Of a stretch of DNA of 64,000 nucleotides, positions 2,349-8,835 are shown piece after piece; the first letter of the stretch is position 1, and each line of letters starts with the position of its first letter. The notes under the pieces are model-generated. The model had not been told where the DNA came from and did not search any database. It saw only the letters and a program-made list of their open reading frames with translations. This stretch comes from Haladaptatus sp. DJG-WS-42 (lineage in GTDB: Archaea > Halobacteriota > Halobacteria > Halobacteriales > Halococcaceae), in NCBI RefSeq assembly GCF_037198285.1, contig NZ_CP147243.1, positions 62,001 to 126,000 on the forward strand, read 5' to 3'. A program made the translations under genes and the position numbers.

Positions 2349-3080
2349 ATGCGACACGTTCGATTCCGCGACCCGGCAGGGTCGGTACGAACTGGTGAGT
2401 GGACCGACGAAGGCATTGTTTTCGCGGGCGAAACCTACGACCCAGACGAGGTGGACGTCCTTCCCCCGTGTGAACCGTCGAAAATCGTCTGTGTCGGACT
2501 CAACTACGCAGACCACGCCGCAGAACAGAACTCAGAGATTCCAGACCGCCCACTTCTGTTCCTCAAACCGCCGAACACACTCGCTGGCCACGGCGACGAG
2601 GTGACGCTTCCGTCGGGTAAAGAGCGCATCGACCACGAAGCGGAACTCGGCGTTGTCATCGGCTCGCAAGCGAAAAACGTCGATGCCGAGGACGCGATGG
2701 ACTACGTGGCGGGCTTTACGTGCGTAGACGATCTCTCGAACCGCGACGACCAGCGCAAAGAACAGAATTGGATTCGCGGCAAGGCGTTCGACAACGCCGC
2801 GCCAGTCGGCCCGGTCGTGGCAACGCCCGACGAAGTCCCGGACGATGCTTCGGTCAAACTCTGGGTTAACGGTGAACTGCGCCAAGAGTCCTCGCGCGCT
2901 GAGTTCATCTTCTCGATTCCAGAACTCATCGAGGAGATTACGTCCTATCTAACGCTCGAAGAAGGCGACATCATCTCGACGGGGACGCCAGCGGGCGTCT
3001 CGCCGCTCGAAGACGGCGACGTGGTCGAAGTCGAAGTCGAAGGCGTTGGCGTACTCGAACACGCCGTTCGGATTCCCTAA
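2349..3080 (+). CDS. Fumarylacetoacetate hydrolase family protein
   Basis: A 243-residue FAH-fold enzyme. A short N-terminal lid (residues 1-45) is followed by the catalytic core with VGLNYADHAAEQ, RPLLFLKPPNTL, the acidic metal-ligand stretch RIDHEAELGVVIG, and GEGDIISTGTPAG-like C-terminal residues (EEGDIISTGTPAGVSPL). Members hydrolyse or isomerise beta-diketone acids such as acylpyruvates or 2-hydroxyhepta-2,4-diene-1,7-dioate using Mg or Mn; the exact substrate cannot be read here. Its stop overlaps the stop of the convergent gene at 3077. It is probably monocistronic. Confidence 0.92.
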   Translation: MRHVRFRDPAGSVRTGEWTDEGIVFAGETYDPDEVDVLPPCEPSKIVCVGLNYADHAAEQNSEIPDRPLLFLKPPNTLAGHGDEVTLPSGKERIDHEAELGVVIGSQAKNVDAEDAMDYVAGFTCVDDLSNRDDQRKEQNWIRGKAFDNAAPVGPVVATPDEVPDDASVKLWVNGELRQESSRAEFIFSIPELIEEITSYLTLEEGDIISTGTPAGVSPLEDGDVVEVEVEGVGVLEHAVRIP

Positions 3081-3484
3081 GCCCGCGCGTCGCTGACCGC
3101 TTCGATCTTTTCGAAAAATGCTTCGAGTTCAGTGGCAACGCGTTCTGGCGCTTCGAGTTCCAATTGTAACCCGATAGCCGCGCCGCTCGACCACCCGACG
3201 ACGTGGATGAGGCCAACGTTTATCGCGTCGAGAAATGCTGCAATATCGCCAGCGAAATCTGCGAAGAAATCGACCGGTTCTGCATACGATGAGTCGCCAC
3301 ACCCTCTCAAGTCCACGGCGAGGAGGTGATAGCGGGGGTCGATCGCGTCAAAGACGAGTTCCCAGTGAATCGACGACGAACAGTTCGAATGGATGAACAA
3401 CACTGGGTCTGTCTCACCCATGCGTTCACGATAGGCGAGTTGCTCGCCGCTCGGCAGTGTGACCACATGGGGTGCGGATGACAA
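3077..3484 (-). pseudogene. Internally deleted alpha/beta hydrolase
   Basis: The frame is open (135 residues) but looks like an alpha/beta hydrolase that has lost its middle. Residues 1-108 match the normal N-terminal half: LPSGEQLAYRE, LFIHSNCSSS for the oxyanion strand, DLRGCGDSS, and the nucleophile elbow GWSSG with Ser99. The sequence then passes directly into APERVATELEAFFEKIEA, which resembles the last helix of such enzymes. The cap, the catalytic Asp and the catalytic His loops are absent; family members are usually 250-300 residues. An in-frame deletion between two PERV-like segments would explain it. A residual function is possible but hydrolysis is unlikely. Confidence 0.7.
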
Positions 3485-3519: not shown

Positions 3520-4044
3520 ATGGAGTTGACGCGTCGAGACGCACTTAGTGCGCTTGCGAGCGTTGGAATCGTCGCCGGTGGCGGGTCGGCGTTCCTCGCA
3601 AGTGGCGACGACGGAGCGGACGTGTCACGTAGACAAATTGTCGAAACCATGGGCGCTGCTGCAGACGTACTCTACCCCACGGAAGTGACCGGGATTCATG
3701 CATTTGTCGAGACGTATTTGACGAGGAAGATAGATGGACGACCGGCGTACAGAAGCCAACTCGGGCGTGCGGTGGTCGAGCTGAACGAGACGGCACAGGA
3801 CTGGTACGACGCACCGTTCGCAGAGTTGTCGGTCGAACTCCGAACGCAACTCCTTGTCGAGATGGGGATTCCCGAAGCCGACCCGAGTGCAGACCCAGGC
3901 GAAACGACGGCGCGGCGACTTCGATACTACATCTGGAACGACCTTCAGTATGCCCTCTACTCGTCGCCAACTGGCGGCCGTCTCGTCGGCATCGAGAACC
4001 CACAGGGACACCCCGGTGGGTTAACCTACACAAAGCAACCATGA
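3520..4044 (+). CDS. Tat-signal gluconate 2-dehydrogenase subunit 3-like protein
   Basis: The N-terminus MELTRRDALSALASVGIVAG is a twin-arginine-like export signal (TRRDAL followed by a small hydrophobic stretch). After it comes the roughly 140-residue domain of gluconate 2-dehydrogenase subunit 3 (pfam Gluconate_2-dh3), with AADVLYPTEVTG and the C-terminal RRLRYYIWNDLQYALYSSPTGGRLVG. In bacteria this small subunit helps export or stabilise the partner flavoprotein. The next gene encodes that partner, beginning within this stop codon (ATGA at 4041). The putative iron operator just upstream suggests iron-responsive expression. The sugar or alcohol substrate is unknown. Confidence 0.85.
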   Translation: MELTRRDALSALASVGIVAGGGSAFLASGDDGADVSRRQIVETMGAAADVLYPTEVTGIHAFVETYLTRKIDGRPAYRSQLGRAVVELNETAQDWYDAPFAELSVELRTQLLVEMGIPEADPSADPGETTARRLRYYIWNDLQYALYSSPTGGRLVGIENPQGHPGGLTYTKQP

Positions 4045-5633
4045 CCCACACCGGAATCCCCCGCACTGACGTTTGCATCATCGGTGCTGGCCCTGCGGGA
4101 GCCCTGCTCGCAGATACGCTCGCGGCGGCGGGCCACGACGTGGTGGTACTCGAAGCCGGACCGCGCTTCGACCCAACGGACAGGCTCGAACGGATGGAAC
4201 GGTCGATTCGACCGGGTGACAGCGGTCTTTCGGTGTGGGACATGGGCGGAAAACGAGATGCCTACACGTCTTCCGGTGAGAACTTTTACCCGCTCAACCA
4301 CGCTCGTGTAAAGGGCGTGGGCGGAAGTACGCTTCACTGGCAGGGGATGGTGATGCGGTTGCACGAATCTGACTTCGCCGCGACCGGGCCAGCGGGCGGC
4401 GAGTGGCCAATCGACTACGACGATTTACGCTCGTACTACGCGAATGCAGAGCAAGAACTCGGCGTCGCCGGGGCAGTGGATAATCCGTTCTCTCCGCCGC
4501 GAGATGAACCGTATCCGATGCCCGCCTTCGCCCCCTCGCACTCGGACTCGATTTTCGCAGAAGCGTGCGAAGCGCTCGAAATCACGACTCACTCGGTAGG
4601 GAACGCCCGCAACTCAGTGGCGTACGACGGCCGTTCTCAGTGCGTTGGCTACGGGACGTGCAATCCCGTCTGCCCGTCAGGCGCGAAGTACTCTGCCGAC
4701 ACAACCATCGAGAAAGCAGAAGCGAAGGGCGTTCGCGTCGTGACCGAAGCCCCCGTTCAACGCCTCGAAACCACTGCAGCTGGCGAGCGAGTCGAAGCCG
4801 CCATCTACGCGAAAGACGGGCGGACGTACAGACAGGAAGCCCGCCAGTTCATCCTTGCCGCCGGTGGTGTCGAAATCCCACGACTGCTCTTACTGTCTGC
4901 ATCAGACGAACATCCGGACGGCCTCGCGAATTCGAGCGGCGCAGTCGGGCGCTATTTCATGGAACACCTGTTTGCGGGGATGGGCGGCGTACTCTCCGGC
5001 CGTGAAACCCGACAGAACCACGTGGGATTCATGACGACCGAAAGTCACCAGTTCTACGACAACGACGAGCCCGGAATCGGCCCTATCAAACTCGAATTTT
5101 TGAACTACGCTGGGCCATCGCCGGTCGAAATTGCAATGGACTCAGCCGAGTATGGCGACGACTTGCTCGAAACCCTCAAAGCCTCCTACGGTCACAATCT
5201 CGCGATGGGCGCACTCGTCGGCCAAGAACCCCGAAAGGAGAATTACATCGGCCTCGACCCCTCCGAGACTGACGACCACGGAAACCCCGTCCCTGATGTT
5301 CATTGGCGGATTGGCGAGCAGGAGAAACGGACCATTGCCCGTGCGAATGAGATTCAACAAGCCGTCTTGGACGAACTCGGCGTAGACATCAGGTGGAAAA
5401 TCGGGCCAGAGAACACCGGGCCGACGTACCACCACATGGGCACGACGCGAATGGGAACGGACCCGGAGACGAGCGTCGTCGATGCGCGCTTGCGATGTCA
5501 CGACGTGGCGAATCTTACGATTGCGTCGAGCAGCGTGTTTGTCACGTCAGGGGCGATGAACCCGACGCTCACGATTGCGGCGTTGGCACTCCGTGCTGCC
5601 GACTTCGTCGATGAATCGTTAAAACAAGCGTAA
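4041..5633 (+). CDS. GMC family oxidoreductase, gluconate dehydrogenase large-subunit type
   Basis: A 530-residue FAD-dependent glucose-methanol-choline oxidoreductase. The dinucleotide-binding motif DVCIIGAGPAGALLADTLA lies at residues 10-28, then GVGGSTLHWQGM (flavin loop), a Cys-containing CVGYGTCNPVCPSGAKYSAD segment around residue 200, and the C-terminal GMC_oxred_C with TYHHMGTTRMGTDP and GAMNPTLTIAALALRAADF. The four-base overlap with the subunit-3 gene supports a complex that is co-exported, since this subunit has no signal of its own. It probably oxidises a sugar, polyol or sugar acid and passes electrons to a membrane acceptor; no cytochrome subunit is adjacent. Confidence 0.9.
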   Translation: MTHTGIPRTDVCIIGAGPAGALLADTLAAAGHDVVVLEAGPRFDPTDRLERMERSIRPGDSGLSVWDMGGKRDAYTSSGENFYPLNHARVKGVGGSTLHWQGMVMRLHESDFAATGPAGGEWPIDYDDLRSYYANAEQELGVAGAVDNPFSPPRDEPYPMPAFAPSHSDSIFAEACEALEITTHSVGNARNSVAYDGRSQCVGYGTCNPVCPSGAKYSADTTIEKAEAKGVRVVTEAPVQRLETTAAGERVEAAIYAKDGRTYRQEARQFILAAGGVEIPRLLLLSASDEHPDGLANSSGAVGRYFMEHLFAGMGGVLSGRETRQNHVGFMTTESHQFYDNDEPGIGPIKLEFLNYAGPSPVEIAMDSAEYGDDLLETLKASYGHNLAMGALVGQEPRKENYIGLDPSETDDHGNPVPDVHWRIGEQEKRTIARANEIQQAVLDELGVDIRWKIGPENTGPTYHHMGTTRMGTDPETSVVDARLRCHDVANLTIASSSVFVTSGAMNPTLTIAALALRAADFVDESLKQA

Positions 5634-5655: not shown

Positions 5656-6294
5656 CTAGTCGCGGTCGTCCCAGTCCTTGTCGTCTCGGTCGTCCCAATC
5701 GTCTTCGCCGCACGCACACATCTTGCCGTTGTTGTAGGCGTCTAAGACCTTGTAGAGACATTCGCCGTTTGCTTCGAGTTTGTCCCACTCACCGGTGCAC
5801 CTGTTTGGGAGCATTATCTTTGCATCCCACGTTCTCATGGGTGTGTACTTCGGCGTCCCGAACTCAGCGAAGCCAGCGGCGTAGAGCCACCGAACTGCCA
5901 CGCCCGGCACACCGTAGTAGCAGCGGCCGCCGCCGATACACTTGTCTGCGGTGCCGCGATACCGGATACACGAGTCTTCTGCCCCGGCGTACTGGTTGAG
6001 CTTCGCCGCGACGAGCGCTTTTGCGAGAATACGGTTTTTGTCACCTCGAACGGGCTGTTTCAGGAGGTACTCAATCCAGAACTCTTTGCGGGCGCGCTTG
6101 TTGGCGATTTGCAGCACGTCAACCGGCCACGCTTCGGGATGGTTCTTCCAATACCCAGGTGACCGTGCACAGACTTTCCGTCGGTCTCTGTCACCTCGTG
6201 CTGCGGCTTTGCCCGGAATGGCAAGCGACGCCGCTCCTGCGATGAGCGCACCGCGTTTGAGGAGCGTCCGTCGTGAAGTACGTATGTCAGTCAT
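5656..6294 (-). CDS. Tat-exported Cys-rich protein with SPGYWKNHPEAWP motif, copy 1
   Basis: A 212-residue protein starting MTDIRTSRRTLLKRGALIAGAA, a clear twin-arginine signal. The mature part holds SPGYWKNHPEAWP at residues 45-57, then an Asn/Gln/Gly-rich region with evenly spaced cysteines (VCAR, DSCIRYR, DKCIGGGRCYYG, NRCTGEW, GECLYK, MCACG), eight of them conserved in the neighbour, likely as disulfides outside the cell. The tail CGEDDWDDRDDKDWDDRD is a strongly acidic repeat absent from the paralogue. GYWKNHPEAWP-like motifs occur in secreted proteins of several bacterial phyla with no function known to me. Confidence 0.8.
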   Translation of the reverse strand: MTDIRTSRRTLLKRGALIAGAASLAIPGKAAARGDRDRRKVCARSPGYWKNHPEAWPVDVLQIANKRARKEFWIEYLLKQPVRGDKNRILAKALVAAKLNQYAGAEDSCIRYRGTADKCIGGGRCYYGVPGVAVRWLYAAGFAEFGTPKYTPMRTWDAKIMLPNRCTGEWDKLEANGECLYKVLDAYNNGKMCACGEDDWDDRDDKDWDDRD

Positions 6295-6504
6295 GAGTTT
6301 TCACCTGAATTGAAATTCTCTACCAATTGACTTTGTTACATGTCTGTTACCTCAGTTTTGGTTGAACTACCAATCAGTATGGGGACCATTTCAGTGTGAA
6401 CGTTCAGCTTAGCAACTGGAGCGAATCGTGAGCCGAGAGACGTGTCACTCGTGAACCAGTGGTTAGCCTGTCGTGAACCTCGTGTGCAGAAAAGAAATGG
6501 GAAC

Positions 6505-7092
6505 TCAGTCGGCCTTGCAGGCGCAGAGCATGCCGTTGTTGTACGCGTCGAGGATTTCGTAGAGACATTCCCCGTTCACCTTAACCTTGTCACGTTCGCC
6601 AGTGCACTCGTTGTTGAGCATAACCTCGAGCTTCCACGTGGTCTGTGGCTCGTAGCCGTTTGCGAACGCTGGGAACCCAGAGGTGATGAGCCACTTGTCT
6701 GCCACGCCGGTCACGCCGAAGTAGCAGCGGCCGCCGCCGATACATTTGTCTGCGGTGCCGCGATACCGGATACACGAGTCTTCTGCCCCGGCGTACTGGT
6801 TGAGCTTCGCCGCGAGTAGCGCCTTTGCGAGGATGCGGTTTTTATCGCCTTGAACGGGTTGTTTCAGGAGATACTCAATCCAGTATTCTTTGTCCTTTTC
6901 GAGGCCGCCAACTTTGACGGTCTCAACTGGCCACGCCTCGGGGTGGTTCTTCCAGTATCCCGGCGATCGCGCACAGACAACTTTTCCACAACCGGCCGCA
7001 GAAACTGTTCCCGGTATGCCAACTGCCGCCGCACCCGCGATGAGTGCGCCGCGCTTTAACAACGTTCGTCGTGAGGTTTGAAAATCTCTCAT
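6505..7092 (-). CDS. Tat-exported Cys-rich protein with SPGYWKNHPEAWP motif, copy 2
   Basis: Start ATG at 7092 (MRDFQTSRRTLLKRG), giving 195 residues; the longer frame upstream lacks coding character. It is a tandem paralogue of the 5656 gene: same Tat signal, SPGYWKNHPEAWP at residues 43-55, and the same eight core cysteines through GECLYEILDAYNNGMLCACK. It lacks the acidic Asp/Trp tail. About 210 bases separate the two copies, and the leader regions differ, so each may have its own promoter. A 70-bp stretch (6746-6815) is identical to copy 1 although flanking codons have diverged. The function is unknown; a cell-surface or secreted structural or binding role fits. Confidence 0.8.
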   Translation of the reverse strand: MRDFQTSRRTLLKRGALIAGAAAVGIPGTVSAAGCGKVVCARSPGYWKNHPEAWPVETVKVGGLEKDKEYWIEYLLKQPVQGDKNRILAKALLAAKLNQYAGAEDSCIRYRGTADKCIGGGRCYFGVTGVADKWLITSGFPAFANGYEPQTTWKLEVMLNNECTGERDKVKVNGECLYEILDAYNNGMLCACKAD

Positions 7093-7255
7093 TTTTGGGA
7101 TTCCCCGGTGACAAGAACGCAAGAAATGTATATTGTTATCAATAAACATCCCTTTGAAAGCGCATTTTACCAGAAAACGGAATGAGGGGATTAAATCGTC
7201 ACACCACTTGCCCGAGGTGGGTGCGTTTAAGGGCGCACGCCGATAGCAGACAGGT

Positions 7256-8329
7256 ATGCAACCACGGGACCTCTCCTCGCACACCGCCTACCGCGCGGGG
7301 CGTGGCATCGAGGAGGTCGCACGCGAGTTGGGCATCGACCCAGCGAATCTAGTAAAACTCTCTTCTAACGAGAACCCACACGGACCGAGTCCGAAGGCCG
7401 CGGCCGCCGTCGAAGCCGCCGCGCCGACCATCCACACCTATCCGAAAACGTCGGCCGCAGACCTGACCGACGCCCTCGCAGAGAAGTGGGACGTCACTGG
7501 CGCACAGATCTGGCTCGCAAACGGCGGCGACGGCGCACTTGACTACCTCTGTCGGGCGATGCTCGAACCCGGAGACGAAGTACTCGTCACGAAACCCGGC
7601 TTCGCCTACTACGCGATGAGCGCGCGATACCACCACGGCGAGGTGAACGAGTACCCCCTCAAGAAACGCGATGACTTCGCCCAGACTGCAGCCACAGTGC
7701 TCGACCACTACGACGGCGAGCGCATCATCTTCCTCACGAGCCCACACAACCCAACTGGCTCTGTCATGGCACTCGATGAAGTCGTGACGGTGGCAGACGA
7801 AACCGCAGAGGAAACGCTCGTCGTCGTTGACGAGGCCTACGGCGAGTTCGCGGAAATGGACAGCGCCATCTCGCTCCTCTCCGACCGCGACGACATCGCC
7901 GTTCTCCGGACGTTCTCGAAGGCCTACGGTATTGCAGGACTTCGGCTTGGCTACGCTGTCGTCCCCGACGACTGGGCCGACGCCTACGCCCGGGTGAACA
8001 CGCCCTTTGCCGCGAGCGAACTCGCCTGCCGGGCCGGACTCGCCGCGCTCTCTGACGACGAACACGTCGAGAAATCCGTCGAAACCGCCGCGTGGGCACG
8101 CGAGTACATCGCCAACAATCTCGACGCGAAGACGTGGAATAGCGCCGGAAACTTCGTCCTCGCGGACGTCGGCGACGGCTCTGCGGTTACGCAGGCCGCC
8201 CAGCACGAGGGCATCATCGTCCGCGACTGTTCGAGCTTTGGGCTGCCCGAATGTATTCGAATCACCTGCGGAACCAAGGAGACCACGAAGCGCGCCGTGG
8301 CCGTGTTGAACGAGGTGCTCACCGCATGA
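7256..8329 (+). CDS. hisC: Histidinol-phosphate aminotransferase
   Basis: A 357-residue class I/II PLP-dependent aminotransferase, close to the usual HisC length. The N-terminus has LVKLSSNENPHGPSPKA, the HisC substrate-binding signature. VDEAYGEFAE precedes the PLP-lysine motif TFSKAYGIAGLRLGY, and the C-terminus has GIIVRDCSSFGLPECIRITCGT, where Arg binds the carboxylate. HisC converts imidazole acetol-phosphate to histidinol phosphate. It starts a three-gene unit: its TGA overlaps the ATG of the kinase at 8326. A role in other aromatic aminotransfer cannot be excluded. Confidence 0.9.
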   Translation: MQPRDLSSHTAYRAGRGIEEVARELGIDPANLVKLSSNENPHGPSPKAAAAVEAAAPTIHTYPKTSAADLTDALAEKWDVTGAQIWLANGGDGALDYLCRAMLEPGDEVLVTKPGFAYYAMSARYHHGEVNEYPLKKRDDFAQTAATVLDHYDGERIIFLTSPHNPTGSVMALDEVVTVADETAEETLVVVDEAYGEFAEMDSAISLLSDRDDIAVLRTFSKAYGIAGLRLGYAVVPDDWADAYARVNTPFAASELACRAGLAALSDDEHVEKSVETAAWAREYIANNLDAKTWNSAGNFVLADVGDGSAVTQAAQHEGIIVRDCSSFGLPECIRITCGTKETTKRAVAVLNEVLTA

Positions 8330-8835
8330 GAGTCGTCGTCACGGGCACGCCCGGGACGGGCAAGACAACGGCCACAACCCTCATCGACACCGACCTCGAT
8401 GTGGTTCACCTGAACGACGTGATTCGAGACGAGGAGGGCCTCTATAGCGAAATTGACGAGGAACGCGATAGCCTCGTTGCCGACCTCGACGCCGTCCGCG
8501 AGTGGCTCGCAGACCGCGACAACGTGCTCGTGGATTCGCACCTCGCCCACCACCTGACGGCGGACAAAGCAATCGTGCTTCGCTGTCACCCAGAACAGCT
8601 CGAACAGCGGCTGCTCGACCGTGGCGAAGCCGCGCAGAAAGCACGCGAAAACGCAGAGAGTGAAGCGCTCGACGTGATTCTCTCAGAAGCCGTCAACGAA
8701 CACGGGCTCGAATCCGTCTACGAAATCGACACGACCGACCGAACGCCCGAGGCGGTTGCCGCGGACGTAGAAGCCGTCATCGCCGGTGACCGCGCACCGT
8801 CTGCGGGCGAGGTTTCCTTCATCGACTATCTATAA
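8326..8835 (+). CDS. Adenylate kinase-like P-loop NTPase (AK6/Fap7 type)
   Basis: ATG at 8326 overlaps the hisC stop, giving 169 residues. MRVVVTGTPGTGKTTATTL contains a Walker A loop (GTPGTGKTT), then NMP-binding-like residues and DSHLAHHLTADKAIVLRCHP, the pattern of the archaeal/eukaryal AK6 (Fap7, hCINAP) family. These are nucleoside monophosphate kinases or ATPases, and Fap7 aids 18S/16S rRNA 3'-end maturation in yeast. It shares a base with the next gene (TAATG). A ribosome-assembly role is inferred from the family, not from this locus. Confidence 0.87.
   Translation: MRVVVTGTPGTGKTTATTLIDTDLDVVHLNDVIRDEEGLYSEIDEERDSLVADLDAVREWLADRDNVLVDSHLAHHLTADKAIVLRCHPEQLEQRLLDRGEAAQKARENAESEALDVILSEAVNEHGLESVYEIDTTDRTPEAVAADVEAVIAGDRAPSAGEVSFIDYL

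Follow-up and report, generated by a model that had tools for sequence, protein, structure and literature searches.

Tandem GYWKNH-domain proteins with twin-arginine leaders in Haladaptatus sp. DJG-WS-42: gene conversion between the copies and a widespread domain family

The GYWKNH locus of Haladaptatus sp. DJG-WS-42 lies in a window of 64,000 nucleotides, the whole stretch of DNA that was analysed. Two adjacent open reading frames on the minus strand, copy 1 and copy 2, were found where the initial annotation had placed a tandem pair of motif-bearing proteins with Tat-type leaders (Table 1). The genes are separated by 210 bp, and their products are identical in 136 of 195 aligned residues (70% amino-acid identity). 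The motif SPGYWKNHPEAWP is common to both copies, as is CARSPGYWKNHPEAWP, located soon after the twin-arginine leader. The eight conserved Cys described earlier are all shared; copy 2 contains a ninth, C35. A whole-genome search identified these two genes as the only close copies in the genome. The name "GYWKNH domain" is coined here for a domain of about 115-150 residues that starts with the motif. Copies 1 and 2 belong to it by their GYWKNHPEAW motif, central A-x-L-N helix and terminal L-D-x-Y-N-N-G.

Table 1. Coordinates of the tandem genes, their parts and the flanking genes in the window.
Feature	Position	Strand	Basis and remarks
Copy 1, Tat-type exported GYWKNH-domain protein	5656..6294	minus	212 aa, 8 Cys; ORF and match to profile A2, E 5.1e-38 (copies 1 and 2 are themselves rows of this profile)
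Copy 2, paralogue of copy 1	6505..7092	minus	195 aa, 9 Cys; ORF and match to profile A2, E 9.1e-39 (same restriction)
Twin-arginine leader, copy 1	6199..6294	minus	TSRRTLLKRGALIAGAA; sequence; TIGR01409 12.8 bits, cutoff 16.7
Twin-arginine leader, copy 2	6997..7092	minus	sequence; TIGR01409 16.2 bits, cutoff 16.7
Acidic Asp/Trp tail, copy 1	5656..5706	minus	stop loss and 24-bp imperfect tandem repeat, 5659-5682 / 5683-5706
Converted tract, copy 1	5942..6011	minus	70 bp identical to 6746-6815; AAKLNQYAGAEDSCIRYRGTAD
Converted tract, copy 2	6746..6815	minus	70 bp identical to 5942-6011
Tract extension, copy 1	5916..5941	minus	25 identical bases and one mismatch at 5941
Tract extension, copy 2	6720..6745	minus	counterpart of 5916-5941
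GMC-type oxidoreductase, convergent neighbour	4041..5633	plus	conserved synteny; name by sequence recognition
HisC-type aminotransferase, divergent neighbour	7256..8329	plus	conserved synteny; name by sequence recognition

Each protein starts with the twin-arginine leader TSRRTLLKRGALIAGAA, as annotated, and the RR motif is evident in every tandem copy of this genome and of the congener sequences. Both TIGR01409 scores lie below the cutoff. A check for the lipobox [LVI][AST][GA]C revealed AAGC in the copy 2 type, ending in C35, with a non-classical Ala at position -3. C35 is confined to genes of the copy 2 type and sits at the leader end, outside the paired Cys; copy 1 has no Cys at its leader end. 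A lipid anchor at C35 of the copy 2 type is possible, with a lipobox that is not classical. The acidic Asp/Trp tail is present on copy 1 and absent from copy 2, in agreement with the initial annotation. The orthologue of copy 1 in congener G002, G002_b, stops at TGA. Copy 1 has TGG at this place and reads on through the 24-bp imperfect repeat, yielding DWDDRDDKDWDDRD. The tail is a recent lineage-specific extension outside the domain and not a conserved feature.

The genus neighbourhood comprises genes recognised by sequence as FAAH, G2DH subunit 3, GMC, HisC, kinase, PgsA, MBF1 and TIM. Most of these neighbours also occur in another haloarchaeal family (L089, L090), with neighbour identities of 49-79%. 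L090 harbors one gene copy at the locus. L089 harbors a tandem pair at the same locus (7046-7711 and 7887-8651), of which one copy carries DEWRDNY instead of the GYWKNH motif and keeps the rest. An alpha/beta-hydrolase-like gene of the window (3077-3484, minus strand) encodes 135 aa, while its counterpart in the congener (L050:5684-6622) encodes 312 aa. The window gene lacks most of the middle and C-terminal part and is therefore probably non-functional. The conserved order G2DH subunit 3 - GMC - GYWKNH gene(s) - HisC, kept by the three species of the genus and also by the other family, would fit a partnership of the pair with the GMC oxidoreductase and the gluconate-2-dehydrogenase-subunit-3-like genes, as a maturation or electron-transfer accessory. 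However, the housekeeping genes HisC, PgsA and TIM on the other side are equally conserved, and the convergent orientation to GMC rules out a shared operon. Other haloarchaeal copies adjoin ABC-transporter/acyl-CoA-synthetase-like genes or a fimbria-like cluster, and their surroundings contain no GMC homologue. The orientation and the GMC-free locations make a functional link to GMC quite unlikely.

The initial annotation had proposed conversion between the copies on account of a tract that is identical while the codons around it differ. The 70-bp identity is exact, and at an offset of 804 bp the copies share no longer stretch of identical bases. Allowing one mismatch extends it to 96 bp (5916-6011 / 6720-6815). 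Identical residues are encoded by different codons in 44 of 114 cases (39%) outside the tract and in 0 of 22 inside, with a chance probability of about 2e-5. The tract bounds were set by inspecting copies 1 and 2, and the independent evidence is therefore provided by the congener G002. Of two congeners, G002 (L050) has the same tandem pair at the same locus, and G001 (L051) has one gene at this position. Over the whole gene, the pairing is orthologous, copy 1 with G002_b and copy 2 with G002_a. The dN of the mature part outside the tract amounts to 0.03 for copy 1/G002_b and 0.06 for copy 2/G002_a. Sites that divide the four sequences two against two are orthologue-type in 100 cases and species-type in 9. 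Six of these nine form one unbroken run, codons 97-106 (permutation, 0 of 100,000). Within the 87 bases of the tract, the paralogues of one species differ at 1 and 0 positions and the orthologues at 6 and 7. Accordingly, the tract rejects the orthology tree in the AU test (p 1.2e-4), and the rest of the gene rejects the species-pairing tree of the tract (p 2.8e-44). The dS analysis along the tract suggested by the initial annotation gave paralogue values of 0.048 and 0.000 inside versus 1.25 and 1.42 outside. Orthologue dS was 0.35 and 0.43 inside versus 0.44 and 0.59 outside, close enough to discount DNA-level constraint as the cause of the identity.

Equal conservation of the tract in all homologues, named by the initial annotation as a refutation, would have spoken for strong selection; within the tract, however, orthologues have 6-7 synonymous differences and the paralogues of each species 0-1, and the test did not refute conversion. 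The tract peptide is fully conserved across all four tandem copies (dN 0), as selection would produce. Selection or a recent partial duplication in place of conversion is nevertheless hardly credible, as synonymous sites of the tract diverge between species (dS 0.35-0.43) and not within them (0-0.05), and the topology tests contradict it. The species-type synonymous sites rule it out for the tract. Gene conversion between the tandem paralogues is thus demonstrated by sequence comparison. It probably took place separately in both lineages, because each pair differs at one position or none and an unconverted pair should show several. The simplest reason for repeated conversion at one place would be that the last stretch of high identity keeps acting as a substrate. 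Alternatively, selection may hold one surface identical. Gene conversion is efficient in Haloferax volcanii, a polyploid haloarchaeon of the same archaeal class (PMC11276520). Non-reciprocal homogenisation is common to both cases, but acts on genome copies in Haloferax volcanii and here on a segment of about 90 bp in tandem paralogues.

The GYWKNH domain is found far beyond the haloarchaea. At least 40 loci were returned from 84,980 species, represented by one genome each; since the queries were exact peptide words, the motif among them, the counts are lower bounds and biased to the canonical motif. Over a dozen groups of bacteria and archaea have the domain. Archaeal relatives belong to Methanosarcinales, Methanomicrobiales and haloarchaea. 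Bacterial relatives come from Chloroflexota, Nitrospirota, Acidobacteriota, Planctomycetota, Verrucomicrobiota, Spirochaetota, Lentisphaerota, proteobacteria, Actinomycetota, Bacteroidota and others. Among haloarchaea its distribution is patchy, with 13 carriers in a class sample of 244 genomes. The sequences fall into at least three types: TPGYWKNHPEAWPV...LDxYNNGLLCAPHRD as type 1, GCTPGYWKNHPEAW...NNxGCPL as type 2, linked to type 1 by hhalign (98.6%), and the Bacteroidota form GYWKTHSxYGPAP as type 3. The family tree has weak support at its deep nodes. In this tree, a methanogen sequence clusters with Geobacteraceae/deltaproteobacterial ones (0.987), which points to lateral transfer. No match was obtained in phage records, nor in plasmids with the bacterial core as query; copy 2 as query gave one weak Haloarcula match among plasmids. 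No Pfam or NCBIfam model reached its curated cutoff over the mature domain of copies 1 and 2 or of the relatives, and an exact-string literature search for the motif retrieved no paper. In the homologue of Methanosarcina sp. DH2 (L010:8046-8450), a TAA stop immediately precedes the terminal Cys segment. A congener's third copy, located elsewhere (L052:8342-9625), has a decayed motif, GYWGSNPDAWP, and keeps the rest of the domain. It is extended at the C-terminus by about 230 aa, which weakly resemble choice-of-anchor D.

The domain forms the C-terminal end of the protein in 32 of 40 occurrences. Among the parts that precede it are SdrD_B, thrombospondin type 3 (TSP_3), SpaA, dockerin, DUF7507 and DUF11 domains and Ig-like stalks. 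The initial annotation's expectation of a widely shared secreted module is borne out by this mostly C-terminal position on stalk-like secreted proteins of many distant phyla. SdrD_B, DUF7507 and thrombospondin-3 stalk proteins (MSCRAMM-like adhesins) carry the domain at or near the C-terminus, whereas copies 1 and 2 have neither a stalk nor a recognised anchor. Tat-dependent export is described for the Tat-fimbriae of haloarchaea (PMC12687288). Copies 1 and 2, by their twin-arginine leaders, would share this export route with TafE and TafA (NCBIfam NF052522, NF052520). A haloarchaeal TafE-like protein (L086:7696-8673, G130) ends in a GYWRNN-type domain; its TafE-like match scores 59.9 bits, short of the equivalog cutoff of 155. 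Copies 1 and 2, in contrast, show no TafE/TafA domain match and lie without a fimbrial cluster alongside. A TafE search of the own genome gave no match, and control genomes were equally silent. The region L086:7696-15283 contains several TafE/TafA-like genes, all below the equivalog cutoff, and a gene for a signal peptidase similar to SipW. By gene content, this cluster is possibly a variant of Tat-fimbriae or of TasA-like fibres. A C-terminal position behind long, variable N-termini is also the common layout of toxin tips in polymorphic-toxin-like systems. Such a role is very improbable for the GYWKNH domain, which is free-standing and Tat-type here with no obvious immunity-gene partner, and which occurs elsewhere in several or internal copies per protein. 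Three tandem GYWKTH-type domains joined by poly-glutamate linkers were found in a Bacteroidota protein (L124:892-2814).

AlphaFold2 models of the mature part of copy 2 (pLDDT 92.3, pTM 0.90) and of a 127-residue Chloroflexota core (L026:7962-8342; pLDDT 95.3, pTM 0.89) predict a small, mostly helical domain. An N-terminal short helix and a beta hairpin are followed by longer helices. The copy 2 model has an additional Cys-rich loop and a second hairpin. Foldseek found no significant match to either model in the PDB (best E 0.74 and 3.5), which does not prove a new fold, and a sequence-profile search of the PDB gave no match (best E 9.5). Among predicted viral structures, proteins of Pithovirus LCPAC001 (A0A481Z1W0) and Pithovirus LCDPAC02 (A0A481YQX6) matched with E 3.5e-5 and 1.9e-4 (prob 1.0), and an Indivirus collagen-repeat protein (A0A1V0SDM6) matched weakly (prob 0.91, E 0.24). 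Unlike copies 1 and 2, the matching regions are parts of larger proteins. Viral contigs scanned with different queries yielded no confirmed relative, so that the giant-virus link is one of predicted fold. It is a tentative proposal that the module represents an undescribed extracellular domain superfamily of archaea, bacteria and giant viruses, that its fold has no counterpart yet among solved structures, and that stalks, fimbriae and collagen-like fibres carry it as an exchangeable head. In this genus, the converted tract would then keep one surface of the two diverging copies identical because both would have to contact the same partner.

Two pairs of Cys covary among 40 occurrences of the domain. 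The Cys before GYW co-occurs with the distal Cys after YNNG (14/1/3/22, Fisher p 3.9e-7), and the Cys in the SSC(I/V) turn with the proximal Cys after YNNG (24/1/1/14, Fisher p 9.3e-9); these p-values are optimistic, given the relatedness of the sequences and a scoring pattern that was revised once, after weaker first values, which makes the test partly exploratory. The cross-combinations showed no positive association. Pairs that are gained and lost together imply disulfides. Copies 1 and 2 possess all four of these Cys, and in copy 2 numbering the bonds would be C40-C192 and C107-C190, stapling the ends of the domain. They would tie the N-terminal GYWKNHPEAW motif to the C-terminal LDxYNNG-C segment. 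Of the eight shared Cys, the remaining ones (C117, C123, C163, C176) are located in regions where the haloarchaeal proteins are longer.

Polar residues of the domain are nearly invariant across distant phyla, beyond the apparent need of a scaffold, and K-N-H-P-E and D..NN are retained in sequence types 1 and 2. An enzyme, e.g. a surface hydrolase or transferase with K48, N49, H50, E52, D83, D182, N185 and N186 as catalytic residues, would account for this conservation. It is an unlikely reading, as the domain lacks similarity to any solved enzyme. Moreover, GYWGSNPD replaces GYWKNHPE in the third copy of the congener, with the rest kept, and the Bacteroidota forms have GYWKTHS; N and E are consequently not strictly needed.

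An extracellular interaction head is favoured by the leader, the probable disulfides, the placement at the C-terminus of stalks and of a fimbria-like subunit, and the lack of a catalytic relative. Each protein would consist almost wholly of one extracellular, disulfide-rich GYWKNH domain exported by the Tat pathway. In other microbes, the same domain tips long secreted or surface stalks, and its most likely role, suggested by this placement, is that of a cell-surface interaction head for binding or assembly. The genus itself has no stalk, which is a counterpoint to a binding head. In this archaeon, the domain may be released or held at the surface alone. A C-terminal stalk domain could instead be an enzyme or an assembly or anchor signal. 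The two copies have diverged elsewhere but exchange a segment of approximately 90 bp by gene conversion, probably repeatedly, in at least two species. A Tat-exported pair of disulfide-rich interaction heads, homogenised by conversion, is regarded as a rather probable explanation of the whole locus.

The GYWKNH domain can be recognised in over a dozen groups at phylum level, and no Pfam or NCBIfam model, solved structure or literature mention was found for it. A single profile model, structure and binding screen could close this gap. As a case of conversion the locus is unusually clean, with one tract in two species, normal dS between them and almost none within. It can thus be used as a natural example of how paralogues are homogenised in archaea.
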